NCBI RefSeq assembly: GCF_009762325.1
Contig: NZ_CP034348.1
Span: 3,602,501-3,666,500, forward strand
Source: Roseovarius faecimaris
GTDB lineage: Bacteria > Pseudomonadota > Alphaproteobacteria > Rhodobacterales > Rhodobacteraceae
DNA length: 64,000 nt
Direction of reading: 5' to 3'
This document shows positions 14,861 through 39,919 of the stretch, in pieces. How positions within the stretch are numbered: position 1 is the stretch's first letter; the number at the start of each line of letters is the position of its first letter. Below the pieces are notes generated by a model that was not told the origin of the DNA, did no database searches, and saw only the letters and a program-made list of their open reading frames with translations. The position numbers were made by a program, and so were the translations under genes.

Positions 14861-14886
14861 CTCATTCGCGTTCCGGTCTGGCAGAG

Positions 14887-16360: not shown

Positions 16361-16388
16361 GCTGTCAATCGAATCAGCAATCCCACGT

Positions 16389-17069: not shown

Positions 17070-17156
17070 GGGGTCTCCTGTTCAGCTCAAGCCAGCCATC
17101 ATTCGTCTTGCGAGTGTAACGACTGCGTGAAACCATTACCATATTGCCAGATGCGG

Positions 17157-17172
17157 AAAAATTTGATCAAAT
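17157..17172 (+). promoter_or_regulatory. Candidate GntR operator upstream of the putrescine transporter operon
   Basis: AAAAATTTGATCAAAT contains the perfect 12-bp palindrome ATTTGATCAAAT. It lies between the divergent GntR gene and the binding-protein gene, about 47 bases before the latter's start, and matches the site at 16344-16360. Confidence 0.6.
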
Positions 17173-17218
17173 CCGCGCACACGGCATCAAAAAGACTGCC
17201 GACCAGTGGGAGACCAAC

Positions 17219-18304: not shown

Positions 18305-18325
18305 TCGCCTGACCTGACAAGACTG

Positions 18326-18353
18326 GCCTGCGCGGGGCGCCCCTCGCGCAGGC
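18326..18353 (+). repeat. Intercistronic hairpin after the binding-protein gene
   Basis: A perfect 9-bp stem (GCCTGCGCG with CGCGCAGGC, GC-rich loop) lies 22 bases after the stop codon. An A-rich rather than T-rich run follows, so it is not a canonical terminator. It probably protects the upstream mRNA or lowers readthrough so that binding protein exceeds the other subunits. Confidence 0.6.
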
Positions 18354-18391
18354 TCACCAAACAAAAAAACACAAAATGACAGGGACATGTG

Positions 18392-19516: not shown

Positions 19517-19519
19517 GAG

Positions 19520-20410
19520 ATGCGCCGCGCCACCCTCATCCTCGTCCCCTATCTCTGGCTGCTGGCACTGTTCCTGGTGCCTTTCCTGATCGTCCTCAAG
19601 ATCAGCCTGAGCGACACTGAACTGGCGATCCCCCCCTATACGCCAACGCTGGATTTCAGCACCGGCTGGCAAGGGATCAAAGAATTCTTATCGGCCCTCG
19701 ATTTTGAAAACTTCACCTGGCTCGCTTCTGACGACCTCTATTGGAAGGCCTATCTCTCCTCCCTCCAGATCGCCGTTATCGCCACCTTTCTGACGCTGCT
19801 GGTCGGCTACCCCATCGCCTATGGCATGGCCAACGCGCCCGAACATTGGCGGCCCACGCTGATGATGCTCGTGATCCTGCCCTTCTGGACCAGCTTCCTG
19901 ATCCGGGTCTATTCCTGGATGGGCATCCTGTCGAGCGAGGGCTATCTCAACCAGCTTCTGCTGGGCATGGGCCTGATCTCGGAGCCGCTCACGATCCTTA
20001 ACACGAATACCGCGGTCTATATCGGCATCGTCTACACCTACCTGCCCTTCATGATCCTGCCGATCTACTCGGCACTGGAACGGCTCGACGGCTCTTTGCT
20101 GGAGGCCGCCGAAGACCTCGGCTGCTCCCGGCTCAGCGCCTTCTGGCTGGTCACCATCCCGCTTTCCAAGAACGGCATCATCGCGGGCTGTTTTCTGGTC
20201 TTCATCCCCACCATTGGCGAGTTCGTGATCCCCTCGCTTCTGGGCGGGTCGCAAACGCTGATGATCGGCAAGGTGCTTTGGGAGGAATTCTTCAACAACC
20301 GCGACTGGCCCGTGGCCTCCGCCGTGGCGGTGATCCTGCTTCTCATCCTGATCATCCCGATCATCCTGTTCCAGCGCAACGAACAGAAAGCGCGGGAGGC
20401 AGACCAATGA
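19520..20410 (+). CDS. Putrescine-type ABC transporter permease (PotB/PotH family)
   Basis: 296 aa, the normal size, with about six membrane spans. The first is ATLILVPYLWLLALFLVPFL, and the EAA loop is in LEAAEDLGCSRLSAFWLV. It forms the heteromeric membrane channel with the second permease. Unlike the PotB-like permease at 6.8 kb it has no large periplasmic insert. The stop overlaps the ATG of a 28-codon open frame that bridges to the second permease. Confidence 0.93.
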   Translation: MRRATLILVPYLWLLALFLVPFLIVLKISLSDTELAIPPYTPTLDFSTGWQGIKEFLSALDFENFTWLASDDLYWKAYLSSLQIAVIATFLTLLVGYPIAYGMANAPEHWRPTLMMLVILPFWTSFLIRVYSWMGILSSEGYLNQLLLGMGLISEPLTILNTNTAVYIGIVYTYLPFMILPIYSALERLDGSLLEAAEDLGCSRLSAFWLVTIPLSKNGIIAGCFLVFIPTIGEFVIPSLLGGSQTLMIGKVLWEEFFNNRDWPVASAVAVILLLILIIPIILFQRNEQKAREADQ

Positions 20411-20493
20411 GCGCAACAAGAAAATGCACATTTTCTTGCCAAATTTCTGTGCAGAAATTTGCGCCTGCGGCCAGCGGAGGTGCTGACAAATGA
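20407..20493 (+). other. 28-codon bridging frame containing two palindromes
   Basis: A short frame (MSATRKCTFSCQ...) starts at an ATGA overlap with the upstream permease stop and ends at an ATGA overlap with the next permease start. Inside are two near-perfect hairpins: CAAGAAAATG/CATTTTCTTG (20417-20438) and AAATTTCTG/CAGAAATTT (20441-20460). GCGCAA/TTGCGC can close them into a three-way junction. Whether a peptide is made is unknown. It looks like a palindromic insert that kept translational coupling through the operon. Confidence 0.5.
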
Positions 20494-21305
20494 GACGCCT
20501 CACCTGGTTCAACACCACCTCACTCACCCTGGGCTTTGCCTTTCTCTACCTGCCCATGGTCATTCTCGTGGTCTACAGCTTCAACGAGTCGAAACTCGTC
20601 ACCGTCTGGGCCGGCTTCTCGACCAAATGGTATGGCGAATTGTTTCGCAACGAGGCGTTTCTCGATGCCGCCTGGGTCACGGTCAAGGTCGCCGTCGCTT
20701 CCTCCACTCTGGCCACCATCCTTGGCACCATGGCAGCCTATGTGCTGGTCCGCGCAGGCCGCTTCAAAGGCCGCACGCTTTTCTCCGGCATGATCTACGC
20801 CCCGCTCGTGATGCCCGAGGTGATCACCGGCCTGTCACTCCTGCTGCTCTTCATCGGCATCGGGCTGGACCGGGGCGTGTTCACCATCGTTCTCGCGCAT
20901 ACCACCTTCTCCATGTGCTACGTCTCGGTCGTCGTCTCTTCGCGCCTTGTCAGCTTCGACCGCTCGCTGGAAGAAGCCGCGCTTGATCTTGGCTGCTCGC
21001 CCATGTCAGCCTTCCGCCTGGTCACCCTGCCGATCATCGCGCCTGCGGTCATCTCGGGCTGGCTTCTGGCCTTCACGCTCAGCCTTGATGACCTGGTGAT
21101 CGCCTCCTTCACCTCCGGCCCCTCGGCCACCACCCTGCCGATCAAGATCTTCTCGGCGGTGCGCCTTGGCGTCTCCCCTGAGATCAACGCGCTCTCGACC
21201 ATCATGATCTCTATCGTCGCCGTGGGGGTGATCACCGCGTCGCTGATCACCAAACGCGCGGCCCTGCGCCAACAGGCGGAGGAACGCGCGGCGGTCAAGG
21301 CATGA
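20490..21305 (+). CDS. Putrescine-type ABC transporter permease (PotC/PotI family)
   Basis: 271 aa, standard length, with six membrane spans and the EAA loop in EEAALDLGCSPMSAFRLVTL. It begins RRLTWFNTTSLTLGFAFLYL. GCGGAGGTGCTGACAA gives a ribosome binding site inside the preceding small frame. It overlaps the PuuB-like gene by four bases, so transport and oxidation of the substrate are coupled in one operon. Confidence 0.93.
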   Translation: MRRLTWFNTTSLTLGFAFLYLPMVILVVYSFNESKLVTVWAGFSTKWYGELFRNEAFLDAAWVTVKVAVASSTLATILGTMAAYVLVRAGRFKGRTLFSGMIYAPLVMPEVITGLSLLLLFIGIGLDRGVFTIVLAHTTFSMCYVSVVVSSRLVSFDRSLEEAALDLGCSPMSAFRLVTLPIIAPAVISGWLLAFTLSLDDLVIASFTSGPSATTLPIKIFSAVRLGVSPEINALSTIMISIVAVGVITASLITKRAALRQQAEERAAVKA

Positions 21306-22627
21306 GCCGCATCTTCCCCGCCCATGCCTATTCCGAGGCCCCACGCGCACGCTGCTACTGGCCCTCCACAGCCAGCCCGCCCGACTTTCCCACCGCCACC
21401 GGAGAGGTCACGGCAGACATTGCCATTATCGGGGCGGGCTTTACCGGTCTGAACGCCGCGCTGCACCTGGCTGAGGCCGGGCGCGATGTGGTCGTGATCG
21501 AGGCCAAAACGCCGGGCTGGGGTGCCTCGGGGCGCAATGGCGGCTTCTGTTGCATGGGCGGGGCGGCGGCCCCGGACAAGGTCATGACCCTGCGCTATGG
21601 CGACGCCGCGCGCGCCGAGTTTCGCCGCGCCGAGAAAGAGGCGACCGACTACGTGCAGGCCCTGCTCGCCGAACGCGGGATCGACGCCGATCTGCATTCC
21701 GAAGGCGAAACCCTCATGGCACATTCCCGTGCCGCCATCGCCAATCTTGAATCCCAGGCCGAAAAGGTCGAGCGCGATCTTGGCATCACACCCACCTTCA
21801 TCCCCGAGGCCGAGCTTGGCGCGCATGGCATGTCCGGCCCGTTTTATGCGGCGCTGACCACCCCCGTGGGTATTGCCCTCAACCCGATGAAATACGTGGC
21901 GGGCCTTGCGCGTGCCGCGGCGAAGGCCGGGGCGCGTATCTTCACCCACTCGCCCGTTTCGGCCATCGACCGGAGTGATGCCTTCACGCTCACAACTCCA
22001 CAGGCCAGGATCCGGGCCAAGCGGCTCATCGTCGCCACCAACGGCTATTCTTCCGAGACTTTGCCGCGCTGGCTCGCGGGCCGCTACCTGCCGACGCAGT
22101 CAAACGTGATCGTCACCCGCGAACTCACGGATGACGAGATCGCCGCGCAAGGATGGTCCACCCATCAGATGTGCTATGATGAACGCTTCCTGACGCATTA
22201 CTTTCGCCTGATGCCCAACAAGCGGATGCTTTTCGGCATGCGTGGCGGGCTGTTCAGCTCCCGCGCGTCGGATGCGCGGATGCACAGCACCATCCGCAGA
22301 CATTTCCAGGAGACCTTCCCCGCCTGGGCAGATGTGGAAAGCCCCTATAGCTGGCACGGGCTCTTGGCCATCTCGCGCGATCTCACGCCGTTCACCGGGC
22401 CGATCCCCGGTATGCCGGGGGCCTTCACCTCGCTCTGCTATCACGGCAACGGGGTGGCCATGGGCTCTTATGCCGGTGCTCTGCTTGCCGATCTGGTGCA
22501 GGACAAACGCCCCTCCCGGCTCTATCCCGCGATCATGCAGCGGCCGCATTCGCGCTACTTGCTGGGCCGCCTCCGGCGCGCGACACTCTGGCCGATCTTC
22601 GCACTCTATGCCCTGCGCGGCGAGTAA
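21302..22627 (+). CDS. puuB: FAD-dependent amine oxidase, gamma-glutamylputrescine oxidase-like
   Basis: 441 aa of the DAO family. The FAD-binding motif is DIAIIGAGFTGLNAALHLAE, followed by GWGASGRNGGFCCMGG, and a C-terminal FTSLCYHGNGVAMGSYAGAL. In E. coli PuuB oxidises gamma-glutamyl-putrescine. Its place at the end of a putrescine transporter operon supports that reading, but puuA, puuC and puuD are absent from the window and related oxidases act on other secondary amines. The start overlaps the permease stop as ATGA. A dispersed palindrome follows the stop. Confidence 0.85.
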   Translation: MSRIFPAHAYSEAPRARCYWPSTASPPDFPTATGEVTADIAIIGAGFTGLNAALHLAEAGRDVVVIEAKTPGWGASGRNGGFCCMGGAAAPDKVMTLRYGDAARAEFRRAEKEATDYVQALLAERGIDADLHSEGETLMAHSRAAIANLESQAEKVERDLGITPTFIPEAELGAHGMSGPFYAALTTPVGIALNPMKYVAGLARAAAKAGARIFTHSPVSAIDRSDAFTLTTPQARIRAKRLIVATNGYSSETLPRWLAGRYLPTQSNVIVTRELTDDEIAAQGWSTHQMCYDERFLTHYFRLMPNKRMLFGMRGGLFSSRASDARMHSTIRRHFQETFPAWADVESPYSWHGLLAISRDLTPFTGPIPGMPGAFTSLCYHGNGVAMGSYAGALLADLVQDKRPSRLYPAIMQRPHSRYLLGRLRRATLWPIFALYALRGE

Positions 22628-23621: not shown

Positions 23622-24209
23622 TTACTGCGCGCCTCCGCAATGCGCGTCAACAACCCGCTGCACCATCGGCGCGAAATGCGCAAAACGCGGCGTCTCCATA
23701 TCCGGATGCTTGCCCGCATCATCCAGATACCGCACCGCCACGATCTTCTCCAGGTTCGGGTTCTGCTCGAACTCAGCCACTTCCTCGTCACTCATCGGCC
23801 CGCCCTGCAGGTTCAGCGAATGCACCGACGCCTCGCTCAGCCGATTGAAATACTCCGGTCGCGTCGCGCAGAGGTATCGCTTCGCCGCCACATGATAGCG
23901 CACGCAATCCGTCACCACCGAGGGAAAGAACCGCTCCAGCACCTGCGCGCCCGCTTCCTCATGATACCGGTCCTCGGTATCCTCCATCGAAAACGTCCCG
24001 AACTCCGATGTGAAATGCCCGATATCGTGCAACAACGCGGCGACGATGATCTCTTCGCTCTGCCCGTTTTGCTCGGCAATGGTCGCTCCCTGCAGCATAT
24101 GCTCGGCCATGGTCACCGGCTCGCCCAGATACTCCTCGCCACCGCGCCGCTCAAAGATATCTTCGAGAAACGCAACGATATTAGCCTGTGTCAGGGTCTC
24201 ATCCGTCAT
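23622..24209 (-). CDS. tmpB: HD-domain mixed-valent di-iron oxygenase, TmpB-like
   Basis: 195 aa. The HD ligands are His37, His61-Asp62 (LLHDIGHF), His83, His106 and Asp163/164. A YLGE motif (Tyr27, Glu30) matches the Tyr/Glu pair that marks PhnZ/TmpB oxygenases and is absent from ordinary HD phosphohydrolases. Family knowledge: TmpB cleaves (R)-1-hydroxy-2-(trimethylammonio)ethylphosphonate to glycine betaine and phosphate. It starts four bases after a gamma-butyrobetaine-hydroxylase-like gene, the known TmpA partner, first characterised in the Roseobacter-group genus Leisingera. PhnZ is the alternative. Confidence 0.85.
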   Translation of the reverse strand: MTDETLTQANIVAFLEDIFERRGGEEYLGEPVTMAEHMLQGATIAEQNGQSEEIIVAALLHDIGHFTSEFGTFSMEDTEDRYHEEAGAQVLERFFPSVVTDCVRYHVAAKRYLCATRPEYFNRLSEASVHSLNLQGGPMSDEEVAEFEQNPNLEKIVAVRYLDDAGKHPDMETPRFAHFAPMVQRVVDAHCGGAQ

Positions 24210-24213
24210 CCTG

Positions 24214-25493
<1,280 letters not shown>

Positions 25494-27159: not shown

Positions 27160-28137
27160 CTACCGCTGCTGGCTCAACAGGGTTGAACCACCCGTGTCCC
27201 GGCTGGGCGAGACCCCAAAGGCCTTGCGATACGTCTTGGAAAAATGCGAAGGCGCTCGAAACCCGCAGAGCACGCAAATCTCGGTCAGCGTCATATCGGT
27301 CTGCGCCAGCAAATACCGTGCCTTCTCCAGCCGCAGCCCCAGATAATACTTCTTGGGCGAGGTCCCGAGGTATTTTGAAAACAGCCGCTCCAACTGCCGC
27401 ACCGACAGGCCCACGACCCGAGCCACCTCACCGGGCGGCAGCGGGTCTTCTATGTTGTTGCGCATGATATCGACCGCCAGCATCAGCTTGGAATTACGCA
27501 GCCCCATGCGCCCCGCGACCGGCATACGCTGCGCATGGCTGTCGGCGCGCGGTGTGCCATAGACCATCTGATCCGCCACCCACCGTGCCAGCTCATCGCC
27601 ATAATCGCGCCCGATCCGGTCCAGCATCAGGTCCATCGAGCTGGCCGAACCCGCACAGGTGAACACCCGCCCATCGACCGCATAGATCACATCCTGCACG
27701 TCGATATCCGGAAACAGCTCGCGCATGGCACCGGCATATTCCCAATGGGTGGTCACCCGCTTGCCGCCCAGAAGCCCGGCCATGGCCAGGATAAACGCGC
27801 CGCTGCTCAACCCGCCCAGGTCGATCCCCCGCCGCGCCTCGCGCCGAAGCCAGCTCAGCACCCGCTTGCTGGCTCCTGCCTTCGCGTCGACCCCCGCGCA
27901 GACAATCAGCGTATCATCGCGGCGCAGGTCGATCAGCCCGCTCTCCACCCCGATCTTCACGCCGTTCCAGCTTTCCACCGGCTGGCCATCTTCGCTGATC
28001 AGCAACCAGTCGTAATACCGCTTGTCCCGGGTAAACCGGTTGGCCAACGCCAGCGCCTCCTGCGCGCAGGTCATCCCCAGCGGCGAAAAGCCGGGGATCA
28101 GCAGGAAAACATAACGCTTTGGCGTCTCGTCACTCAT
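27160..28137 (-). CDS. GlxA/AraC-family regulator, GbdR-like
   Basis: 325 aa. An N-terminal DJ-1/PfpI-like domain (about 8-190; YVFLLIPGFSPLGMTCAQEA, GGLSSGAFILAMAGLL) is joined to a C-terminal AraC helix-turn-helix (about 225-320; VARVVGLSVRQLERLFSKYL, LTEICVLCGFRAPSHFSKTY). GbdR of Pseudomonas, with this layout, activates glycine-betaine and dimethylglycine catabolism. Here the gene follows a dimethylglycine-dehydrogenase-like gene on the same strand at the end of a methylamine operon, with tmpAB nearby, so betaine or dimethylglycine is the likely effector. Confidence 0.88.
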   Translation of the reverse strand: MSDETPKRYVFLLIPGFSPLGMTCAQEALALANRFTRDKRYYDWLLISEDGQPVESWNGVKIGVESGLIDLRRDDTLIVCAGVDAKAGASKRVLSWLRREARRGIDLGGLSSGAFILAMAGLLGGKRVTTHWEYAGAMRELFPDIDVQDVIYAVDGRVFTCAGSASSMDLMLDRIGRDYGDELARWVADQMVYGTPRADSHAQRMPVAGRMGLRNSKLMLAVDIMRNNIEDPLPPGEVARVVGLSVRQLERLFSKYLGTSPKKYYLGLRLEKARYLLAQTDMTLTEICVLCGFRAPSHFSKTYRKAFGVSPSRDTGGSTLLSQQR

Positions 28138-28190
28138 CAGGTTCCACCCGCCCCGGGCCTGACCCGGGGCCTTGAGGTCAGGCCGCGGGG

Positions 28191-30656
28191 TTAGCTGCGC
28201 ATATTGGCCCCGTTGGCGTCATACAGCGGCGCGCCCTGCACTTCCGCATCATACATCTCGCCCAGGATCTCCACCTGAAGCACCGTGCCCGGCGCGGCTT
28301 TCTCGGTAGCGACATAGCCCATCGCCATGGATTTCCCGACCCGGTGCGCATAGCCCCCCGAACTGACATAACCCACCGCATCGCCACCGCTCAGGATCGC
28401 CTCATCGCCGGTCACGTCGATCCCGTCCACGTCAATGGTCAGCGTCACCAGCTTGCGGGCCACACCCTCATCGCGCAAGGCCTCTGTCGCCGCCTTGCCG
28501 ACAAACTCCTTGTTCCAGTTGATGAAAGCATCCATGCCGCTCTCGACCGCGTTGAAGTCGGGCCGGAATTCCAGCGTCCACACGCCCCAGCCCTTCTCCA
28601 GCCGCATCGACATCAGCGCCCGCGCCCCGTACCAGGTATAGCCCAGATCGGCACCCGCCTCCTCGATGCTGCTCGCCAGTTTCAGCAGGTATTGCGGACG
28701 ACAGTAAATCTCGTATCCAAGCTCGCCCGAGAAGCTGATCCGGTTCAGGATCACCGGCACACCGGCGACATAGGTCTGCCGCAGATCGCGGAACTTGAAC
28801 GCCTCGGCGCTCACATCCTCGCGCATCAGCCGCTGCAACAGCTCACGCGATTTCGGCCCGCTCAGCGCCACGCCATGCCAGTCATCCGACACATTGGCAT
28901 AGGTCACACCGTCGGGCAGGTCTTTCTCAAACCACCGCCGATGCGCCTCCTGCATCGCGCCCGACCCGAACAGCATGAAGTGATCATCGGCCAGGCACGC
29001 GACCGTCAGATCCCCATAAAGCCGCCCCTTCTCGGTCAACATCGGTGTCAGGGTCAGCCGCCCGGGTTTGGGGACATATCCGGCCAGAATAGTGTCTAAA
29101 TAGGCCCGCGCGCCCGCCCCTTTGAATTCGTGCTTGGCAAAGTTGGCGATCTCGATACCGCCAACCGCCTGCCGCACCGCCTTCACCTCGCGCGCGACAT
29201 AGTCAAAGCTCCTGTTGCGCTCGAATGTCGGCTCCTCATGGGCATCTTCCGGCCCGTCCGCAAACCACAACGCATGTTCCAGGCCAAAGCCCTGATCCAT
29301 GACCGCCCCCTTGGCGATCAGCCGGTCATAAAGCGCCGTCGTCTTCTGCATCCGCCCCTTGGGCAGCGTCTCGTTGGGGAAGGTCATGACAAAGCGCCGC
29401 TCGTAATTCTCGGTGCTCTTGACGGTGCCCCAATCCGGGCTGGCCCAGTCGCCGAACCGGGCCACATCCATCGCCCAGACGTCAATCGACGGCTCTCCGT
29501 CGATCATCCATTCGGCCATGGTCAGGCCCACGCCGCCGCCCTGACAGAACCCCGCCATCACGCCCACGGCGCACCAGTAATTTTTCATCCCCGGCACCGG
29601 GCCGATCATCGGGTTGCCATCGGGGCCAAAGGTGAACGGGCCGTTAATGGCATCCTTGATCCCCGCATTAGCCAGCGCCGGGATCCGCTCGAACCCCAGC
29701 TCCAGCCGGTCGGCAATCCGGTCCAGATCGGGCGGCAACAGCTCATGCCCGAAATCCCAGGGCGTGCCGGCCACTTTCCACGGCGTGCCCTTCGGCTCAT
29801 AGGTGCCCAAGAGCATCCCCTGCCGCTCCTGCCGGAAATAGATATTCGCCTCATAGTCGATCCCGCAGGGCAGGCGGCCGGCACCACCCGGCTCCATCCG
29901 CTCGACGATCTCGGGGATGGCTTCGGTGATCAGGTAATGGTGCTCCATCGGCTGCACAGGGATGTTGATCCCCTGCATATGCCCGACCTCGCGCGCCCAC
30001 AGCCCCCCGCAATTGACGATGATCTCGGCATTGATCACCCCTTTGGGCGTGGTCACATCCCAGCTCCCATCGGGCTTCTGTTTCGTCTCTGTGACACCGC
30101 AATGCGTGAAATATTGCGCCCCATGCACCCGCGCCGCCTTGGCAAAGGCGTAAGTTGCGCCCGACGGGTCCAGATCGCCATCCTGATCGTCCCAAAGGGC
30201 GGCATAATATTGCGAGGTATCAATCAGCGGATGCCGCTCAGCCAGTTCTTTCGGGCTGATAAACTCCTGGTTCAGACCCATGTACCGCGCCTTCGACCGC
30301 TCGCGCTTGAGGTAATCATACCACTCCTTGTTCGACGCCGCATAAAACCCGCCGGTCATGTGCAGGCCCACCGAATGCCCGCTCGTCTCTTCGATCTCCT
30401 TGTAAAGGTCGATCGTATAGCCCTGCAGGCGGCTGATATTCGGGTCCGAGGAAATCGTATGGATCTGCCCCGCCGCATGCCAGCTCGATCCGCTGGTCAA
30501 CTCGTCCCGCTCCAGCAGGACAACATCCTTCCAGCCGAATTTGGCCAGGTGAAACAGGATCGAACAGCCCACAACCCCACCACCAATAACCACCACCTTG
30601 GCGTGGCTCGGCAGTTGCTTGGCCCCTGCGGTTTCGTCTTTTTGAATCTCAGGCAT
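28191..30656 (-). CDS. Dimethylglycine/sarcosine dehydrogenase-type flavoprotein (DAO-GcvT fusion)
   Basis: 821 aa. The N-terminal FAD domain begins with KVVVIGGGVVGCSILFHLAK and has SSWHAAG, where the His carries covalent FAD in dimethylglycine and sarcosine dehydrogenases. The C-terminal 400 residues are a GcvT-type tetrahydrofolate domain (SGELGYEIYCRPQYLL, YGARALMSMRLEKGWG). Such enzymes remove N-methyl groups as formaldehyde and pass them to folate. It is followed by a GbdR-like regulator. The substrate could be dimethylglycine, sarcosine or another N-methyl amino acid. Confidence 0.92.
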   Translation of the reverse strand: MPEIQKDETAGAKQLPSHAKVVVIGGGVVGCSILFHLAKFGWKDVVLLERDELTSGSSWHAAGQIHTISSDPNISRLQGYTIDLYKEIEETSGHSVGLHMTGGFYAASNKEWYDYLKRERSKARYMGLNQEFISPKELAERHPLIDTSQYYAALWDDQDGDLDPSGATYAFAKAARVHGAQYFTHCGVTETKQKPDGSWDVTTPKGVINAEIIVNCGGLWAREVGHMQGINIPVQPMEHHYLITEAIPEIVERMEPGGAGRLPCGIDYEANIYFRQERQGMLLGTYEPKGTPWKVAGTPWDFGHELLPPDLDRIADRLELGFERIPALANAGIKDAINGPFTFGPDGNPMIGPVPGMKNYWCAVGVMAGFCQGGGVGLTMAEWMIDGEPSIDVWAMDVARFGDWASPDWGTVKSTENYERRFVMTFPNETLPKGRMQKTTALYDRLIAKGAVMDQGFGLEHALWFADGPEDAHEEPTFERNRSFDYVAREVKAVRQAVGGIEIANFAKHEFKGAGARAYLDTILAGYVPKPGRLTLTPMLTEKGRLYGDLTVACLADDHFMLFGSGAMQEAHRRWFEKDLPDGVTYANVSDDWHGVALSGPKSRELLQRLMREDVSAEAFKFRDLRQTYVAGVPVILNRISFSGELGYEIYCRPQYLLKLASSIEEAGADLGYTWYGARALMSMRLEKGWGVWTLEFRPDFNAVESGMDAFINWNKEFVGKAATEALRDEGVARKLVTLTIDVDGIDVTGDEAILSGGDAVGYVSSGGYAHRVGKSMAMGYVATEKAAPGTVLQVEILGEMYDAEVQGAPLYDANGANMRS

Positions 30657-30673
30657 ATCTTTCCCTCACCTGT

Positions 30674-31387
30674 TCAGAGTTCGTCTTTTGCAAAGATGTG
30701 GAACGACGCGCGGTTCACGGCGTCGGGCATCTCACACTCCAGTTTCACCACGCGCACAATGTCCTTCGGCCGTCGCAGCAGCACCGCCTCGGGCTCCATC
30801 GTGCACAGCCAGTCACCTTCGGCGTAAAGGTCATAGAAATCCGCTGTCTCCCGGGCGAGGTATTCCTCTTCCGTCTCGATCGGCGGATAGACATCCCGCA
30901 GGATGGCAAGCTGCGCCCGCCCCGCCGCGCGGATGCCAAAGGGCGTCGCGATCACCTCGCCGCCACCCGTCGTCGTCAGCGCCCCGTCGGACAGTGCCAG
31001 ATCATCCAGCAACCAGCCCCGTGGCGTCATCGGCTCTGCCCCAAGACCGCGCAGAATGGCAAAGGCGTCATGGGTCTCGCCCTCCCGCTCGGTCACAGTG
31101 CCGGGGATGATGTCGGTATTCCCGTCCAGATTGGCCACCCGCATCCGCCGCAGGGGCCAGAACCGCGTCGCCTCACCGGTGTCGATGCTGATCTCGATCA
31201 GGTGCTGATCATGCAGCTTATAGTAATAGCTGCCCAGATTGTCGATGACATCGCGCAGCACATAAATATGCGTCTGCGTCGCCGCCATAAGCCGGTCGCC
31301 CGAGCTCATCCCCCGGTCGGGCGTGGCCCATGCAACGCCGACAAAAAGAACAATTTGCGCAAGAATAGAGACGCATATGGCCCTCAT
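30674..31387 (-). CDS. Secreted protein of unknown function inside the methylamine operon
   Basis: 237 aa with a signal peptide (MRAICVSILAQIVLFVGVAWA, cleavage near ATPD), so probably periplasmic. The body has repeated short beta-like segments (THIYVLRDVIDNLGSYYYKL, LIEISIDTGEATRFWPLRRM) but no motif I recognise. Its ATG overlaps the stop of the PEP-mutase-like gene by four bases, and the dehydrogenase gene starts 17 bases later, so it belongs to the operon. A secreted orphan among cytosolic enzymes is unexpected. Confidence 0.8.
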   Translation of the reverse strand: MRAICVSILAQIVLFVGVAWATPDRGMSSGDRLMAATQTHIYVLRDVIDNLGSYYYKLHDQHLIEISIDTGEATRFWPLRRMRVANLDGNTDIIPGTVTEREGETHDAFAILRGLGAEPMTPRGWLLDDLALSDGALTTTGGGEVIATPFGIRAAGRAQLAILRDVYPPIETEEEYLARETADFYDLYAEGDWLCTMEPEAVLLRRPKDIVRVVKLECEMPDAVNRASFHIFAKDEL

Positions 31388-32208
31388 TCCGCCGCCCCCT
31401 TCGCCAGCAATGCATCCACCTCAGAGCCGGGTGCCGCCTCCAGGAAATCCGAGAAATCTCCATCGTTCAGGATATGCTTTGCCGTGTTGATCAGCGCCGC
31501 ATGCGTCACCCGCGCCAATGCGGAACCCAGCGAGATGCGCGCCACCCCGATGCCGGCGAACTCCGCGCGGCTGACCCTCGCAAACGGACCCACCGCCAGC
31601 GCATTCACCGGCTTCGCGGTTGCGGCGCAGATCCGCGCCAGATCCTCCATCGAGGGCGGCAGCGGTGCATAAAGGCAATCCGCCCCAGCCGCGTCAAAGG
31701 CCTGCAACCGGCGGATCGCCTCATTCGTGTCGTAGACCTCGTTCATCACTCCATCGGCCCGCGCGACAAAGACAAAGTCGCGCCCCAGCGCCCGCGCGGC
31801 AGCGGCCCCGGCCCGGATACGCTCCACCGCAAGCTCCGCCTCATACGCGCCGTGGTCAGACATCCGCGTGTCCTCAATCGAGATGCCCGCCAAGCCGATC
31901 TCACCGGCCAGACGCACAGTTTCGGCCACATCCTCAGGCGCGTCGCCATACCCGTTCTCGAAATCGCCCGACACCGGAAGCGATACGGCACTCACGATGC
32001 TTTCCGCATGGGCCAGCGCCTCATCGCGGCTCACATTGCCCATATCCGGCCGGCCCAGCGTGAAGGCATGCCCGCTCGACGTGGTGCCAATCGCCTGCGC
32101 CCCCAGGGCGGCCAGCACCTTGGCGCTGCCCACATCATAGGCGTTCATCAGGGTGAACGGGTCTCCGGGCTTGTGCAACTCTCTGAAAACCATGCCAATA
32201 TCATTCAT
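31384..32208 (-). CDS. Isocitrate lyase/PEP mutase superfamily enzyme
   Basis: 274 aa from ATG 32208. The barrel carries GDFENGYGD (metal-binding Asp/Glu), SIEDTRMSDHG and VFVARADGV. The KKCGH of isocitrate lyases and the DKxxPK loop of PEP mutases are both absent. It therefore fits the broad group of oxaloacetate-decarboxylase/carbon-carbon-lyase-like members with unknown substrates. It starts one base after the flavin oxidoreductase stop. In this operon it may split the carbon skeleton left after demethylation. Confidence 0.87.
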   Translation of the reverse strand: MNDIGMVFRELHKPGDPFTLMNAYDVGSAKVLAALGAQAIGTTSSGHAFTLGRPDMGNVSRDEALAHAESIVSAVSLPVSGDFENGYGDAPEDVAETVRLAGEIGLAGISIEDTRMSDHGAYEAELAVERIRAGAAAARALGRDFVFVARADGVMNEVYDTNEAIRRLQAFDAAGADCLYAPLPPSMEDLARICAATAKPVNALAVGPFARVSRAEFAGIGVARISLGSALARVTHAALINTAKHILNDGDFSDFLEAAPGSEVDALLAKGAAE

Positions 32209-32209
32209 C

Positions 32210-34186
32210 TCAAATCTCCAAACCTGCCTTGCGGCCTTCGTAAAACGCATAAGGTGCCTGACGCGGGGCCGCCGCATCGCCGATCAGTTTCAGCGCGACA
32301 CCCTCCAGCGCCTCCGACAGCGGATCAAAACTCCGGTTCGTCGTCGCCATGACCAGCGCCGCGGCGGCCTGTTCGCTCTCTTCTCCGGTCAGCAGGTTGC
32401 GCAGCGTCGCCCCCTGCCCATGCCAGGCGGCAATCGCGTGTTCGGTCAGAAACCGCACACCGCTCTGCGCCAGCTTCGCACGGATCGGAATATCGGCCGA
32501 GGTCCGGGCCAGTTCCTTGCCCACCATCGGATCAGGCGTCACCAGCGTCACCTGATGCCCCGCCTCCGCCAGGTGCCAGGCCGTGCCGACACCGCGCATG
32601 TTGCCGCCCTCGTCATAAACGATCACCGCATCGCCCAGACGCACCTCGCGGCGCATCACCTCTTCGGGACTCACCACATGGCCCAGCTCCCGGCCTGGAA
32701 GCGGCCCCAGATGCGGCAACCACCGCTGTGTGCCGTCCTCATCCGGCAGCGATCCGGTGGCCAGGATCACCACATCCGCCCCCCTGGCCCGCACCTCCGC
32801 GTCGTCGAGATAGGAGTTGAGGTGCAGCACCACGCCCAACCGCTCGAACTGCCGCTCATACCAGTCCATCAGGTCGCTGATCTGTGCGCGCCGCGGTTGC
32901 AGCCCAGCCAGCCGGAACTGCCCGCCTATCATCGGCGCGGCCTCATGTATCTCGACACGATGCCCACGCTCTGCCGCCACCCGCGCCGCCTCCAGCCCGG
33001 CAGGCCCCGCCCCGACAACAAGCACCTCTTTCGCCTGATTAGAGACTGAAAACCGGTCACCGCCCCACGCGTGCTCCCGCCCTACGGACGGGTTGATCAG
33101 GCACGAAATCCAATAGTCGCGCGACCTACGCCCCCAACACATCTGATTGCAGGAGATGCAGCCGCGAATGTCGCCCTCGCGCCCTTCACTCACCTTTCGT
33201 GCCAGATGCGGATCGGCGATCTGCCCCCGCACGATAGACACCAGATCGGCCTGCCCCGCGCTCAGCACGCTTTCGGCATTTTCAGGTGTGCGGATGCCGC
33301 TCTCGGCCTGCACCTTCGCATGGCGCAGCGCGCCTTTCAGTGCCGCCGTCGCATCCACGGTCAGCTTCTCGCCCAGCGCAAAGGTCGGCATCAGCCGCTC
33401 AAAGTCGAGATACCCGCCCGACCCGCAGGTGACATAATCCAGATGCCCCGTCGCGTCATGCCGCGCCACGATCTCGGTCAACTCGTCCAGACCGTGCAGA
33501 ACCGGATAGCTGTCCGTATAGCTCACCGACATGCCGATGATGAACGCCTCACCACAGGCCCGCCGCACGCCCTCAAGGATACGCATCGACATGCGCGTGC
33601 GGTTCTCCAGGCTTCCGCCCCACTGATCGTCACGCCGGTTGCTCCAGGGGGTCCAGAACTGCTCCAGCAGCGAATGATAAGCCGCCCAGATCTCGACCCC
33701 GTCAAACCCCGCCTTCTGACAACGCACCGCCGCCGCGACGAAAGCCGCGATCATCTCTTCGATCTCGGCTTCGCTCATCGCGTGGCTGCCGTCGCTGTCG
33801 TGATAGGAGGGCTGCCCGGACGGGCCCCAATGCGGCTGAAAACTCAGGTCGCTGTCGCCATGCGCGCCCACATGGTAAAGCTGCTGCAGAACAACCGCGC
33901 CTGCGTCCTGAACAGGCTCTAATATGGCCCGAAACGCCGGAATCACCGCATCGTCCTCGGCCCGGAAATTCCCCCGTGTCAGCACACCCGTGCGATGCAC
34001 CGGCACCGGCTCGGCCACGATCATGCCCGCCCCGCCAATCGCCCGCTCCAGAAGATACGCGCCATATTGCGCACCCGGCAGGCCACCATCCGACATATTC
34101 GCCGTATGCGCGCCAAAACTGATCCGGTTGCGCAGCGTCTTGTGCCGCAGCTGTAAAGGTTCCGTCAGACGGGGAAAGGACGTCAT
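32210..34186 (-). CDS. Old Yellow Enzyme-type demethylase (TMADH/DgcA-like, FMN, [4Fe-4S], FAD/ADP domains)
   Basis: 658 aa from ATG 34186, which overlaps the tdh stop by four bases. An FMN barrel (about 1-345) is followed by a CISCNQMCW...SC cluster motif (CxxCxxxC, fourth Cys 11 residues on) and a pyridine-nucleotide-disulfide-like domain ([20 protein letters not shown]). This is the layout of trimethylamine dehydrogenase, histamine dehydrogenase and DgcA of dimethylglycine catabolism. It should demethylate a tertiary amine. Dimethylglycine is one candidate, but the GcvT flavoprotein downstream could do that job too. Confidence 0.88.
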
Positions 34187-35226
34187 GCCTGCTCCCAATC
34201 CATCACGACCTTTCCGGAATTGCCCGAGATCATCGCGGCAAACCCCTCTTCAAAGTCGTCTATCGAAATCCGGTGCGTGATCAGCCCCGACACATCCAGA
34301 CCGCTCTGCACCAGCGCGATCATCTTGTACCAGGTCTCGAACATCTCGCGGCCATAGATGCCTTTGATATGCAGCATCTTGAAAATCACCGTGTTCCAGT
34401 CGACCGGGAACTCCGTCGGCGCGATGCCAAGCAAGGCCAGCTTGCCGCCATTGTTCATGTTGCGGATCATCTGCTGCATGGCGGCCGCCGCACCCGACAT
34501 CTCAAGACCCACGTCAAAGCCCTCGGTCATGCCAAGCCGCGCCATCACATCGGCCAACTGTTCCTGGCTCACATCGACCACATGCTGCACGCCCATCTTG
34601 CGCGCCAGATCCAGGCGATACGGGTTGATGTCGGTGATCACCACTTTCCGCGCGCCCACCTTCTGCGCCACCAGCGCACCCATGATCCCGATGGGCCCCG
34701 CGCCGGTCACCAGCACATCCTCCCCCACCAGGTCAAAACTCAGCGCCGTATGCACCGCGTTGCCGAACGGGTCGAAAATGGCCGCGATCTCATCGGGGAT
34801 ATCCTCCGGGATCAGCACGACATTGGCCTCGGGAATACAGACATATTCGGCAAAGGATCCGGGCCGGTTCACGCCGACACCTTTCGTGTTCCGGCACAGA
34901 TGCCCGCGCCCGGCGCGGCAATTGCGGCAGGTGCCACAGACCACATGCCCCTCGCCGCTCACCCGCTGGCCGATCTTGTACTTCACCGCCGCCGCGCCGG
35001 TCTCGACTATCGTGCCGACAAATTCATGCCCCACGACCATGGGCACCGGCACCGTCTTGGCGCTGAACTCGTCCCATTTCCAGATATGCACATCGGTGCC
35101 GCAAATGGCCGATTTGCGCACCTTGATCAGCACATCGCTCGGCCCCACCTCGGGCACCGGCACATATTCCATCCAAAGCCCCGGCTCAGGCCGGGCTTTG
35201 ACAAGGGCTTTCATCTGGTTCTGCAT
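34183..35226 (-). CDS. tdh: L-threonine 3-dehydrogenase or close homologue
   Basis: 347 aa zinc medium-chain dehydrogenase. The catalytic zinc site is in [14 protein letters not shown] and GHEFVGTI; the structural zinc cysteines are in [16 protein letters not shown]; the NAD motif is [13 protein letters not shown]. Tdh oxidises L-threonine to 2-amino-3-ketobutyrate. kbl, which cleaves that product, is two genes upstream in the same operon. A cysteine-synthase-like gene between them is unusual. Confidence 0.93.
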
Positions 35227-35230
35227 GGTC

Positions 35231-36148
35231 TCAACTCCACAAATCCGTGCTGAGGTACTTCAACCCGCTGTCACACACCACAAAGGCCACCGCGCCGCCC
35301 TTTTCCGGGCCTTGCAAAAGGCGGATCGCCGCGGCCAGGTTCGCCCCTGCCGAGTAGCCGCCAAAGATGCCTTCAGCGCGCGCCAACATCCGGGCATGAT
35401 CGGCGGCGTCCTTGCCTGAAACAGTCTCTCTTCCGGCCAAACTCACCCCTTTCAGGTGGGTCAGGTCCGGCATGTCATAGCCCCCGCCCTGGATCGGATG
35501 CTCTGCCATATCCGGCTCGACCGCGTAACAGCGCACACCCTTTGTGGCGAAATAGCGGGCGCACCCGCCCAGCGTCCCGCCCGAACCGACAAAGTCGCAA
35601 AATGCCGTCACCGCGCCACCTGATTGCTCCCAGATCTCGGGGGCCGTGCCATGTTCATGCGCCGCCGTGTTCTCCGGCCGCTCGAACTGATCGGCGCGAA
35701 ACGCCCCGCGCTCCGCCGTGATCCGTTGCGCTTCGGCCTCCACCAGCGCCAGATCGGCCCCCGACACCTCTCCGGGCTTCGACCCCGCCGCCTGCGGCAC
35801 CAGAACCACCTTAGCGCCCAGGCTGCGCATCATGCGCGCGCGCTCTTCCGAATTGCCCTTGCTCATCACGGCGACAAAAGGATGCCCCAGCACACCGCAG
35901 ACTATGGCAAGCCCCGTGCCCATATTGCCCGAGGTCAGCTCCACCACCACCTGCCCTTCGGCCAGAGCACCCGACGCGCGCGCCGCCTCGATCGTCGCCT
36001 TGGCCGCGCGGTCCTTCTTGGAAAACCCCGGATTGAGGTAATCCAGCTTCGCCAGAAGCCGCCCTTCAAGGCCCAATATGTCACTAACCCGGCCCAATTC
36101 GACCAGAGGCGTGTTGCCTATCGCGTCGATGATCGACGGATATGTCAC
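35231..36148 (-). CDS. Cysteine synthase-family PLP enzyme
   Basis: 305 aa from a GTG start that overlaps the kbl stop. It is a fold-type II PLP enzyme: the cofactor lysine is in [12 protein letters not shown], the substrate loop reads TSGNMGTG (TSGNTG in CysK), and the phosphate-binding glycines are in GSGGTLGG. The Asn-Met change and the tdh-kbl operon suggest that it is not the housekeeping CysK. It may perform a beta-replacement or beta-elimination on a substituted serine or threonine. Confidence 0.88.
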
Positions 36149-37341
36149 CCGATCACCCCCAGGTCGCGCCCCACCGCCTCGAATGCCTCAATCGCCCGGT
36201 CCAGCATCTCCCGCGTGAGCGCCGCGCTCATCTGCGTGCGGATCCGGTCCTGCCCTTTCGGCACCACCGGAAAGCTGAAGGCGGTCACATAGACCCCCCG
36301 CTCATCCAGCCTCGCGGCCATCTGCTGCGCCAGCTTCGGGTCGCGCAGCATCACCGGGATGATCGCATGCTCTCCGGGCAACAGCTCGAACCCCAGCTTG
36401 CCCATCCGGTCGCGGAAATAGGCGGCATTCTCCCACAACCTCGCGCGCAGCCCGTCACCCTCCTCCAACAGGTCAAACACTTTCAGCGACGCCGCCGCGA
36501 TCACCGGCGCCAGCGTGTTGGAAAAGAGGTAGGGCCTTGAGCGTTGCCTGAGCCAGTCCACCACCTGTGCGCTCGCCGCCGTATATCCGCCCGAGGCACC
36601 CCCCAGCGCCTTGCCCAGCGTGCCGGTCAGGATATCCACCCGCCCCATCACGCCGCAATGCTCATGCGTGCCCCGCCCGGTCGCACCCACGAACCCGGTC
36701 GAATGGCAATCATCCACCATCACCATCGCGTCATACCGCTCGGCCAGATCACAGATCTCGCCCAGACGCGCGAAATACCCGTCCATCGAGAACACACCAT
36801 CGGTGGCAATCAGCCTGTGCCGCGCGCCCTGCGCCTCCTGCAAACAGCGCTCCAGATCGGCCATGTCCGAATTCGCATAGCGGAACCGCTGCGCCTTGCA
36901 CAGCCGCACACCGTCGATGATGCTCGCATGGTTCAGCGCGTCCGAGATAATCGCATCCTCCGGGCCCAGAAGCGTCTCGAACAAACCGGCGTTGGCATCG
37001 AACGCCGCCGCATAAAGGATCGCATCCTCCATACCAAGAAAGCCCGCGATCCGCGCCTCCAGCGCCTTGTGCTCTTCCTGCGTCCCACAGATGAACCGCA
37101 CCGAGGCCATGCCAAACCCATACCGGTCCAGCCCCTCATGCGCGGCCCTGATGATCTCCGGGTGATCCGCCAGCCCGAGGTAGTTATTGGCGCACAGGTT
37201 GATCACCTCGCGCCCGTCCGACAGCCGCACCTCGCCCGCCTGCATCGAAGATATCACGCGCTCGCTCTTGTAAAGACCCTCCTCGCGCAGCCCCTCCAGC
37301 CGCCCGGCGATATCCTCGTTGAACCTTTCAGATGCGCGCAT
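36145..37341 (-). CDS. kbl: Glycine C-acetyltransferase (2-amino-3-ketobutyrate CoA ligase)
   Basis: 398 aa alpha-oxoamine synthase. The PLP lysine is in [16 protein letters not shown], with [16 protein letters not shown] and [17 protein letters not shown] blocks typical of Kbl. It splits 2-amino-3-ketobutyrate with CoA to glycine and acetyl-CoA, completing threonine breakdown with Tdh. The ATG at 37341 is preferred over 37347 because AAAGG is eight bases before it. The ribosome binding site overlaps the edge of a dispersed repeat. Confidence 0.95.
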
Positions 37342-37351
37342 GATCATGACC

Positions 37352-37412
37352 TTTCATTGTTCCGAAAATACTCCGGGGGAATCGCCTGAAAGGCGATGGG
37401 GGCAGCGCCCCC
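37352..37412. repeat. Dispersed CATTGTTCC...ATACTC element with hairpins, copy 3
   Basis: CATTGTTCCGAAAATACTC is followed by stems ATCGCC/GGCGAT and GGGGGC/GCCCCC. It fills the gap between the MttB-like gene and kbl, inside an operon, and ends at the MttB-like stop codon. Confidence 0.72.
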
Positions 37413-38930
37413 TTAATACCACGCCTCCGGTATCTCACGCTTGCGCCGGGCAATATAGTCCCTGAGCGCCTCATCCACGGCCTCGTCGATCGGCGGGGCC
37501 TCATACCCCTCCAGCATCGCGGTCCACCGTTCATAGGCACGTTGGCGCATGTCCTTCTCGCCCGCCTCTTCCCAGCTCTCCACATTCTCGGAATCGCTCA
37601 GCGCAGGTTCGTAAAACGCCGTCTGATAGTTCCGCATCGTATGCCCGCAGCCCAGGAAATGCCCGGCCGGTTCCACCTCCGCATAGGCGTCGCGCGCCAG
37701 CGCCTCGTCGCTGGCATCCAGGCCCCCCAACAGCTTCTGATAGGCGCCCAGGCGATCCGCATCCATCACCAGCTTCTCAAACCCGGTGCACAGCCCGCCT
37801 TCCAGCCATCCGGCCGCGTGCAGCACGAAATGCGCCCCTGCCACGGCTGTCGACTGCATCGAATCCGCACTTTCATAGGCCGCCTGCGCATCCTCGATCT
37901 TGCTCGCCGTCAGCGACCCGCCACAGCGCAGCGGCAATCCCACCCGCCGCGCCATCTGACCGATGGCATAGTTGCTCAGCACCGGCTCGGGCATCCCGAA
38001 CGTGGGCGCGCCGCTTTTCAGGCTCATCGAACTCAGGAAATTGCCCAGAACGAAGGGCGCGCCGGGCTTCACGATCTGCGCGAAGGCGCAGCACACCAGC
38101 GCCTCGGCCATCGCCTGTGTCACGCTTGCTGCCGTGCTCACCGGCCCCATCGCGCCGCTGAGGATAAACGGCACCAGCACAATCCCCTGACCGCGTCCGC
38201 AATAGACCTGGATCGCCTCGCTCACCACCTTGTCCACCAGCAGGGGCGAATTGGTGTTCACATTCCCCATGATCACACAATTCTGGTCCATGACCTCGCG
38301 CCCATGCAGAATCTCGGCCATGTCCACACTGTCCTGTGCCCGGCTCTTCTCGGTGATCGCGCCCAGATGCGGCTTATCCGACCAGCGCATATGCGTATAG
38401 ACCATGTCCAGATGCCGGTGGCTCACCGGCACGTCGCAGGGCTCACAGATCACCAGCCCTGTGTGATGCAGGTTCGGATGCAGATACGCCAGCTTCACCA
38501 GCTTCTCGAAACTCTCCATATCGCCATAACGACGGCCCCCCTTCAGGTCGCGCACAAAGGGCGCGCCATAGATCGGGGCAAAGACCTGATTGGCGCCGCC
38601 AATCCGCACATTCCGCGCCGGGTTCCGCGCCACCTGGGTGAACTCGCTCGGCGCTTGCCGACACAGCTCTCTGATCCAGGCCGCATCGGCGCGCAGGCGG
38701 TTGCCCTCCATCTTCGCGCCCGCGCGTTCCCAGATGCGATGCGCCTCCGGGTCATCGCGGAACTCGATCCCGACCTCTTCGATCAGCCAGTCAACCTGCT
38801 GCTCCAGCCTGACGATGGTCTGCTCGTCCATCACATCAAACACCGGCAATCGCCGCGCCACATGCGGTGAGGCCAGCGGCCCCGACCGGCTGCCGCCGCT
38901 GTCTCTCCGGGTCTTGCTGCGTCGCGCCAT
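37413..38930 (-). CDS. MttB-family (trimethylamine methyltransferase-like) protein, non-pyrrolysine
   Basis: 505 aa from ATG 38930 (GGGGAGTGACAGGG upstream). It matches the MttB superfamily along its length (for example FAPIYGAPFVRDLKGGRRYG, GNVNTNSPLLVDKVVSEAI, FGMPEPVLSNYAIGQMARRV). There is no in-frame amber codon, so it belongs to the non-pyrrolysine branch, which includes the glycine-betaine methyltransferase MtgB. No corrinoid protein or reactivase is in the window. It is first in the nine-gene operon and presumably removes a methyl group from a quaternary amine. A divergent LysR gene faces it. Confidence 0.9.
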   Translation of the reverse strand: MARRSKTRRDSGGSRSGPLASPHVARRLPVFDVMDEQTIVRLEQQVDWLIEEVGIEFRDDPEAHRIWERAGAKMEGNRLRADAAWIRELCRQAPSEFTQVARNPARNVRIGGANQVFAPIYGAPFVRDLKGGRRYGDMESFEKLVKLAYLHPNLHHTGLVICEPCDVPVSHRHLDMVYTHMRWSDKPHLGAITEKSRAQDSVDMAEILHGREVMDQNCVIMGNVNTNSPLLVDKVVSEAIQVYCGRGQGIVLVPFILSGAMGPVSTAASVTQAMAEALVCCAFAQIVKPGAPFVLGNFLSSMSLKSGAPTFGMPEPVLSNYAIGQMARRVGLPLRCGGSLTASKIEDAQAAYESADSMQSTAVAGAHFVLHAAGWLEGGLCTGFEKLVMDADRLGAYQKLLGGLDASDEALARDAYAEVEPAGHFLGCGHTMRNYQTAFYEPALSDSENVESWEEAGEKDMRQRAYERWTAMLEGYEAPPIDEAVDEALRDYIARRKREIPEAWY

Positions 38931-39022: not shown

Positions 39023-39919
39023 ATGCAAGAGCTGTGGAAACTCGTCTCGTCCCCGCGTCACTTGCTGGTGTTCGAGGCCGCCGCCCGCACCGGCTCTTTC
39101 ACCCGTGCCGCGCAGGAGTTGAACGTACAGCAACCCGCCGTTTCCGCCTCGATCAAGCAGTTGGAGGTCTCGCTTGGCACGCCGCTTTTTGCCCGCGCGC
39201 ACCGGTCCGTGACCCTCACACAGGCGGGGGAGCGGCTCTTTGCCGATGTCTCCGCCGCCTTCGCCCGCATTCACCAGACCGCCAGCATGCTCAGCCAGCG
39301 CAGCGCGCAGGATCACGTCACCCTCTCGGCCTCCACCGCATTCGCACATTACTGGATGGTGCCGCGCCTTTCGGATTTTCACGCGGCTCACCCGGATATC
39401 GACCTGCGCCTGCAAACCTCGGACCGCGAGCCCGATATCGGCGCCGAAGGGATCAGCCTGGCCATCCGGCGTGGCCTTGGCGACTGGCCGGGATGCAAAA
39501 GCCATCTCATCGCGCTCGAGGTGATCATGCCCATCGCCGCCCCGCGCGTCATGGCCTCCGCCATCAACCTCGCGACGGTCGCCAACCTGCCAAATCAGTC
39601 TCTGATCCACCTCGAAGAGCCCATTCGCGACCGCCCAAGCTGGGCCGATTTCTTTCGCCACTGGAACGTGCCCTTCACCGAACCGCGCACCGGCCTGCGC
39701 CTCAACGACTACGCGCTTGTTCTGCAGGCGGCCATTGCGGGCGAAGGGTTCGCCTTCGGCTGGCAACATGTAACCGAAAGCCTGGTGTCGCGCGGCCTGC
39801 TCGCCGCGCGCCCGGAATGGGCCTGGACAACCGGCGCGGGCTTCTACCTGGTTTGGTCCGCCACCACCCCGCTCAGCCCGCAGGCCGAACAGGTACGCGA
39901 CTGGCTGATCTCGCTGTAG
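39023..39919 (+). CDS. LysR-family transcriptional regulator, GcvA-like
   Basis: 298 aa. The N-terminal helix-turn-helix is clear (LLVFEAAARTGSFTRAAQEL, QQPAVSASIKQLEVSLGTPL), followed by a substrate-binding domain. It starts at ATG 39023, divergent from the nine-gene methylamine operon, and is its probable activator; a GbdR-like regulator sits at the other end. GcvA controls glycine cleavage in E. coli, which would fit an operon that produces glycine. The TAG stop lies inside a dispersed palindrome. Confidence 0.92.
   Translation: MQELWKLVSSPRHLLVFEAAARTGSFTRAAQELNVQQPAVSASIKQLEVSLGTPLFARAHRSVTLTQAGERLFADVSAAFARIHQTASMLSQRSAQDHVTLSASTAFAHYWMVPRLSDFHAAHPDIDLRLQTSDREPDIGAEGISLAIRRGLGDWPGCKSHLIALEVIMPIAAPRVMASAINLATVANLPNQSLIHLEEPIRDRPSWADFFRHWNVPFTEPRTGLRLNDYALVLQAAIAGEGFAFGWQHVTESLVSRGLLAARPEWAWTTGAGFYLVWSATTPLSPQAEQVRDWLISL

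Follow-up and report, generated by a model that had tools for sequence, protein, structure and literature searches.

The closest described relatives of a putative nine-gene operon in Roseovarius faecimaris (Alphaproteobacteria, Rhodobacteraceae; assembly GCF_009762325.1) are found among enzymes of betaine demethylation and threonine degradation. The operon was analyzed within a stretch of 64,000 nucleotides (contig NZ_CP034348.1, positions 3,602,501 to 3,666,500), referred to as the window. Escherichia coli has a threonine degradation operon, tdh-kbl, whose products Tdh and Kbl convert threonine to glycine and acetyl-CoA. Dimethylglycine dehydrogenase (DMGDH) oxidizes a dimethyl amine and loads the methylene group on tetrahydrofolate (H4folate), and flavoproteins of the old yellow enzyme/trimethylamine dehydrogenase type (OYE/TMADH) can remove an N-methyl group as formaldehyde. 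TmpA and TmpB, which act on 2-trimethylaminoethylphosphonate according to the names of the solved proteins, yield glycine betaine. According to a study of MtgBCD of Ruegeria pomeroyi (PMC12478193), MttB/MtgB transfers a methyl group of a quaternary amine onto a corrinoid protein, from which MtgD delivers it to H4folate; up to seven PF06253 open reading frames (ORFs) per genome are described and diverse methylated substrates are suggested. Every part of the R. faecimaris operon is of a known kind. No description of the operon, of its combination of genes, of the additional MttB/DMGDH set or of the repeated link between this set and Kbl and Tdh was found in the titles or abstract starts of the open-access literature searched. 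The organization tentatively suggests that two modules, both ending in glycine and one-carbon units, share a putative operon whose regulators are of the betaine type.

The first module is a conserved demethylation pair, formed by an MttB-like corrinoid methyltransferase and a DMGDH-type protein. A survey of 295 genomes from 294 genera identified window-type MttB (identity of at least 72%) in 21 genomes and window-type DMGDH (identity of at least 75%) in 27. The two genes are almost perfectly co-conserved: all 21 MttB-positive genomes carry window-type DMGDH compared with 6 of the 274 others (Fisher p = 4e-27). The DMGDH gene adjoins the MttB gene in all 20 loci fetched from other genera, directly in 16 of them, and a divergent LysR gene was called beside the pair in 18. 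The inserts between the two genes consist of PALP and tdh in locus L140 (PALP being a cysteine-synthase-like pyridoxal phosphate enzyme), an OYE gene in L145 (LysR-MttB-OYE-DMGDH, with neither tdh nor kbl called) and an enolase-superfamily gene plus a second gene in L144 and L152. In 19 of the 20 loci, no kbl, PALP or tdh gene was called next to the pair; the exception is L140, where no kbl was found.

Several of the loci place the pair next to genes of glycine metabolism. In L130 the order is LysR<MttB>DMGDH>GbdR-like>soxB-soxD-soxA-soxG, in which soxB exceeds its cut-off and soxD, soxA and soxG are below theirs but are the best match in each case. Glycine cleavage genes are located near the pair in L097 (annotated) and L148 (by cluster). 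The order in Paracoccus sp. TOH is gcvT, gcvH and gcvP followed by LysR<MttB>hydrolase>MLE>DMGDH>GlxA-type regulator. The order in Mesorhizobium sp. 113-3-3 is LysR<MttB>MLE>DMGDH>class II aldolase, with an MttB from another clade. In L159 the DMGDH is 75% identical to the protein in the window and the MttB is from another clade. An enolase-superfamily gene recurs beside the pair in L097, L144, L152 and L159; the L144 copy was considered as a relative of 4h2h, presumably HpbD, but this structure is far down its match list and is not the closest. Window-type DMGDH without window-type MttB occurs in six genomes (G120, G123, G160, G209, G211 and G256), whose contexts were read together with that of a second DMGDH copy in G176; the G160 contig of 3.1 kb shows nothing. 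Among these contexts, L170 contains the gene of an ICL/PEP-mutase-superfamily protein (PEPM) beside DMGDH and no MttB, and no kbl or tdh of the window kind was found in L171, L173 and L174.

The MttB-like protein matches PF06253 over its full length (residues 5-501, 717.6 bits, above the cut-off) and its gene has no in-frame stop codon, showing that it is not a pyrrolysine enzyme. The R. faecimaris genome contains nine PF06253 places. A phylogenetic analysis places the window protein within a clade of 32 rows (support 100/100) that is separate from a canonical clade of 11 rows (98/99). The canonical clade contains the Sinorhizobium meliloti protein 4yyc, identical to L165, in a mtgC/mtgD-type neighborhood, and the window protein lies outside this MtgB clade that adjoins mtgCD. 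A canonical paralogue in the same genome is 46% identical to the window protein, and a canonical member is present in all 8 genomes compared, including G199, G200 and G204, in which the best match to the window protein reaches 47-50%. In DhMtgB, Y94, N199, R309 and H345 are proposed as glycine betaine contacts on the basis of docking (PMC6855144); all four residues are kept in the window protein and several of them are kept in other clades too. The genome provides both partners that an MtgB requires, a corrinoid protein and a pterin methyltransferase, at other locations: a single PF02607 match of 236 amino acids (MtgC-like, with a 213-amino-acid neighbor read by eye as a DUF1638 protein) and a single PF00809 match of 353 amino acids that is not DHPS-like (MtgD-like, with a neighbor that is MetF-like by eye). 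The likeness to MtgBCD of R. pomeroyi (PMC12478193) extends from the PF06253 methyltransferase and the MtgC- and MtgD-like proteins to the predicted transfer of the methyl group onto H4folate and the predicted subsequent dimethylglycine and sarcosine steps, whereas the window protein differs by its separate clade and by being joined to kbl, PALP and tdh.

The DMGDH-type protein combines the DAO, FAO_M, GCV_T and GCV_T_C domains in a single chain, the architecture of dimethylglycine dehydrogenase, and its closest solved relatives are dimethylglycine dehydrogenases (PDB 4p9s and 5l46, the rat and human enzymes; E about 1e-172). It differs from the core DMGDH that is also present in the genome, to which it is 51% identical, and belongs to a group, defined by identity, whose members are 75-90% identical to it. 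The core DMGDH is kept in 20 of the 21 MttB-positive genomes compared with 143 of the 274 others (p = 4e-5). The MttB-like and DMGDH-type proteins of the window therefore look like an addition, a second set beside canonical MtgB and core DMGDH, and not like a replacement.

Further MttB paralogues were observed elsewhere in the R. faecimaris genome (G000). In L133 (contig C2, around 333000), the genes surrounding a paralogue resemble, as judged from the sequence starts, those of an aldehyde dehydrogenase, a DHDPS-like deaminase and an epimerase of the enolase superfamily, and this cluster is perhaps involved in hydroxyproline betaine catabolism. The region 1731209-1745460 of the same contig (L136, L188) forms a one-carbon cluster. 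It contains a divergent pair of MttB-like genes and a DMGDH-like gene, with an MtgD-like gene located about 8 kb further along, next to a gene that is MetF-like by eye.

The second module consists of kbl, PALP and tdh. A scan of the genome contigs with the PALP protein was evaluated for the best 80 of 393 relatives and genes within these loci were called by tblastn. All three genes are present together in 57 of the 80 loci, which were picked by PALP, and among the 57 loci MttB was found in 7, DMGDH in 10 and neither in 47. The window Tdh and Kbl both exceed their NCBIfam cut-offs and in this correspond to the E. coli tdh-kbl operon, from which the module differs by the accompanying PALP enzyme. 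PALP itself does not reach the cut-off of any cysteine synthase model, and threonine catabolism in these bacteria may generally involve it. In L020, L033 and L036, recurrent neighbors of the trio resemble leuC, leuD and further housekeeping genes, based on the sequence starts, and the PALP neighbors in the Bosea and Mesorhizobium loci display no common theme.

The initial annotation had proposed that the nine genes serve a shared pathway, for which conservation of their order would speak. Twenty of the 80 loci were classified as window-type (L029 is window-like by synteny but falls outside the classification), and these contain PALP (20 loci), GbdR (12), DMGDH (11), MttB (8), LysR (8), PEPM (7), the orphan gene (6), TmpA (4) and OYE (2); some of the loci end at contig ends and the absences are upper bounds. 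None of MttB, OYE, PEPM, the orphan, DMGDH, GbdR and TmpA was found in the other 60 loci at the thresholds used. The complete nine-gene set is present in 1 of the 80 loci (L032), so that the conserved units are the two modules and not the nine genes, and conservation of the nine-gene order is not borne out. Pseudohalocynthiibacter aestuariivivens RR4-35 (L031) has the gene row of the window, but no OYE was found in it. What stands of the shared-pathway proposal is the presence of three demethylase-type proteins, the co-conservation of MttB and DMGDH, and the recurring link to Kbl and Tdh. The modules come together in the lineage of the window, which comprises Roseovarius and its relatives, and in two further genera, where the arrangement differs.

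The loss and gain of single cassette genes at the same locus, from OYE in 2 to PALP in all 20 of the partly contig-end-limited loci, would be expected if a threonine operon and a betaine cassette were joined by chance and shared nothing but their transcription. Such a chance junction is improbable, since Kbl and Tdh are associated with DMGDH once more in another gene row of different construction, which points to more than one accident, and since glycine-linked genes (soxBDAG, gcvTHP) are located near the demethylation module in L130, L097 and L148. The second row was identified in the genomes G256 and G176 and consists of an MttB paralogue, window-type DMGDH, a GbdR-like gene, dddP, thrC, kbl and tdh on one strand. 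Relative to the window, identity is 81-83% for DMGDH, 37-38% for the GbdR-like protein, 73% for Kbl, and 60% (G256) or 82% (G176) for Tdh. The DMSP lyase DddP is above the cut-off in G176 (NF043017, 798 bits) and was read by eye in G256. ThrC is above the cut-off in both rows, and each genome contains another above-cut-off ThrC elsewhere; the rows (G176 C17, L175; G256 C13, L172 and L179) present themselves as a betaine/DMSP gene row with a dedicated second threonine synthase. The MttB in the rows is from a clade other than that of the window. The Kbl proteins belong to a clade of 22 rows that contains the window-lineage Kbls (SH-aLRT 100) and is separated from 38 rows in the other clade; G256 is represented twice in the 22-row clade, which also includes L060. 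A single event inherited by both genomes may account for the rows in G256 and G176.

The second row speaks for one linear route, as the initial annotation had proposed, in which the MttB-like, DMGDH and OYE proteins strip an N-trimethyl amino acid and the free product is threonine or is converted to threonine by PALP/ThrC, followed by Tdh and Kbl to give glycine and acetyl-CoA. A second ThrC together with Kbl and Tdh stands beside an MttB paralogue and DMGDH in these rows, their Kbl groups with the window lineage, the 60 loci outside the window type show none of MttB, OYE, PEPM, the orphan, DMGDH and GbdR at the thresholds used, and PALP-Tdh is retained between MttB and DMGDH in L140. Furthermore, a PALP match (E 1e-80) is more common in MttB-positive genomes (8 of 21) than in others (33 of 274, p = 0.004). 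However, this enrichment weakens to p = 0.03 without the two genomes in which the genes are physically linked, to 0.04 within genomes that carry core DMGDH and to 0.15 with both restrictions, and 13 of the 21 MttB-positive genomes lack a PALP match. TmpA is enriched to the same degree (8 of 21 versus 30 of 274, p = 0.002; kinship between genomes is ignored in these tests of PALP and TmpA), so that lifestyle may explain both. The co-occurrence of TmpA is uninformative for separating a glycine betaine substrate from the linear route. Also counting against the linear route are the different clade of the MttB in the second row and the grouping of L060, whose locus lacks both MttB and DMGDH, with the Kbl proteins of the window lineage; we consider the linear route less likely than two converging branches.

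Two converging branches are preferred over a linear route because the pair occurs without adjoining kbl, PALP and tdh in 19 of the 20 loci from other genera and because sarcosine oxidase or glycine cleavage genes are located near the pair in L130, L097 and L148. In the demethylation branch, the MttB-like protein would pass one methyl group of an alpha-amino-acid betaine to the corrinoid protein MtgC and MtgD would move it onto H4folate, both being encoded elsewhere in the genome. The DMGDH-type protein would then oxidize off a second methyl group as methylene-H4folate, and the third would be removed by the OYE flavoprotein in the window or by sarcosine oxidase where soxBDAG adjoins (L130). In the other branch, Tdh and Kbl, with the PLP enzyme probably feeding them, would convert threonine to glycine and acetyl-CoA. 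The second set would run beside canonical MtgB and core DMGDH without replacing them. The most likely substrate is glycine betaine, for example made by TmpAB, or a close relative. TmpA and TmpB display strong sequence matches to the solved proteins of the phosphonate route (PDB 6npa-6npd). In the window their genes lie downstream on the same strand, at most about 2.7 kb from GbdR and separated from it by what look like msrA, msrB and a GPx-like gene; in L025, L026, L030 and L032 the distance to GbdR is at most about 2 kb.

Four observations weigh against converging branches on glycine betaine. In none of the 20 other genera does TmpA lie close to MttB. Canonical MtgB and core DMGDH are already present, and the retention of the latter suggests a different substrate for the second set. 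Glycine convergence alone does not account for the dedicated second ThrC that accompanies Kbl and Tdh in the sister row. Finally, at the thresholds used, MttB, DMGDH and PALP all lack a match in G285, the other sampled genome of the genus. Among the numerous MttB paralogues of marine Rhodobacterales, the present one is coupled to a DMGDH of its own and in some lineages to the cleavage of threonine. This narrows the candidate substrates to a few that can be tested and suggests that a second betaine route runs in parallel with the glycine betaine pathway.

Two other substrates were considered. N,N,N-trimethylhomoserine is the head group of marine betaine lipids, and a homoserine- or threonine-type betaine such as this would be demethylated by three unrelated N-demethylases (corrinoid, FAD/folate and OYE) and converted to threonine by PALP/ThrC before cleavage by Tdh and Kbl to glycine and acetyl-CoA. 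This possibility is doubtful; if true, it would give a fate for the betaine-lipid head group. A proline-betaine-like substrate, from which the MttB-like protein would make N-methylproline for demethylation by an StcD-like OYE, is the least probable of the explanations. Stachydrine clusters contain the OYE-type StcD, OYE relatives with 62-63% identity have glycine-betaine/proline ABC transporter genes as neighbors in L160 and L161, and a relative in S. fredii (L164) is accompanied by a GbcA/GbcB-like pair, whose scores are below their cut-offs, and by an MttB relative with 52% identity. However, OYE is present in just 2 of the 20 window-type loci, the constant partner is DMGDH, for which we know of no role on proline, and the L133 paralogue is the likelier candidate for a betaine of this type. 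A flavin oxidoreductase beside MttB in Roseinatronobacter (L167) was rejected as a counterpart of the window OYE, to which it is only 33% identical.

The one-strand organization and tight spacing described by the initial annotation were confirmed by the ORF coordinates (table 1). All nine ORFs, from 38930 to 27160, are on the minus strand and mostly overlap or are separated by a few bases. Measured between ORF ends, the distances are 65 bases for MttB-Kbl, -4 for Kbl-PALP, +4 for PALP-Tdh, -4 for PEPM-orphan, +17 for orphan-DMGDH and +53 for DMGDH-GbdR. Tdh and OYE overlap by 4 bases, with the OYE ATG at 34186-34184 spanning the tdh stop codon, and the OYE-PEPM distance is -68 by the longest ORF or 1 base if an internal ATG at 32208 is the start. 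Simple scans found 0 promoter-like sites versus 2.9 in shuffled sequences and 8 terminator-like sites versus 7.3 and were uninformative. TmpA, TmpB and the divergent LysR gene are outside the nine-gene set and had not been mentioned before.

Table 1. Coordinates within the window of the nine-gene set and its neighbors, with the basis of each assignment.
Feature	Coordinates	Strand	Basis
LysR regulator, divergent from MttB	39023..39919	+	nearest models: choline-sulfate regulator, GcvA; below cut-offs of 25 models listed
MttB-like (PF06253) corrinoid methyltransferase, putative second-set betaine demethylase	37413..38930	-	PF06253 profile, tree
Kbl, glycine C-acetyltransferase	36145..37347	-	TIGR01822 659 bits, cut-off 493; tree
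PALP, cysteine-synthase-like fold-type II PLP enzyme	35231..36148	-	Pfam match; below all cysteine synthase cut-offs
Tdh, L-threonine 3-dehydrogenase	34183..35226	-	TIGR00692 488.7 bits, cut-off 458.35
OYE/TMADH-type flavoprotein, putative N-methyl amino acid demethylase	32210..34186	-	Pfam match, gene contexts
PEPM, ICL/PEP-mutase-superfamily protein, start perhaps 32208	31384..32277	-	Pfam match
Orphan, hydrophobic N-terminal helix	30674..31387	-	without Pfam or NCBIfam family
DMGDH-type FAD-GcvT fusion, window-type identity group	28191..30656	-	DAO, FAO_M, GCV_T, GCV_T_C
GbdR-like GATase1-AraC regulator	27160..28137	-	NF052371 287 bits, cut-off 480
TmpA homologue (2-trimethylaminoethylphosphonate hydroxylase), true start inside ORF	24214..25464	-	6npb, E 1.5e-155
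TmpB homologue, true start inside ORF	23622..24335	-	6npa, E 9.5e-104

Kbl and Tdh exceed curated NCBIfam equivalog cut-offs and the other named functions are assigned at the family level. PALP, OYE, PEPM and the GbdR-like protein have Pfam matches but are below the cut-off of every NCBIfam model listed (25 of 29, 25 of 52, 5 of 5 and 24 of 24 models, respectively, including NF052371 for GbdR). PALP scores 222 bits against a cut-off of 344 for the cysteine synthase model cysKM and 220 against 387 for PRK10717, and PEPM reaches at best 76 bits against a cut-off of 354 among the models for methylisocitrate lyase, PEP mutase and phosphonopyruvate hydrolase. The orphan is likely exported, judging by eye from its N-terminal helix. 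A sequence search returned two weak matches to designed proteins and no stretch passing, and its structure model (pLDDT 79) has no fold match in the PDB at E 0.001 or better. A match to the orphan is present in 6 of 198 genomes including its own, with only one strong match among the others, and L010 displays a Kbl-Tdh-orphan arrangement.

Elsewhere in the window, the region 8161-22627 encodes a pair of class III aminotransferases, an ectoine hydrolase of the DoeA-like kind (576 bits against a cut-off of 613) and, according to the sequence starts, a polyamine-type ABC transporter. In the region 53750-60000, possibly an island, tRNA-Leu precedes a stretch with few clear coding ORFs, and an IS3 transposase is encoded at 58068-58883.

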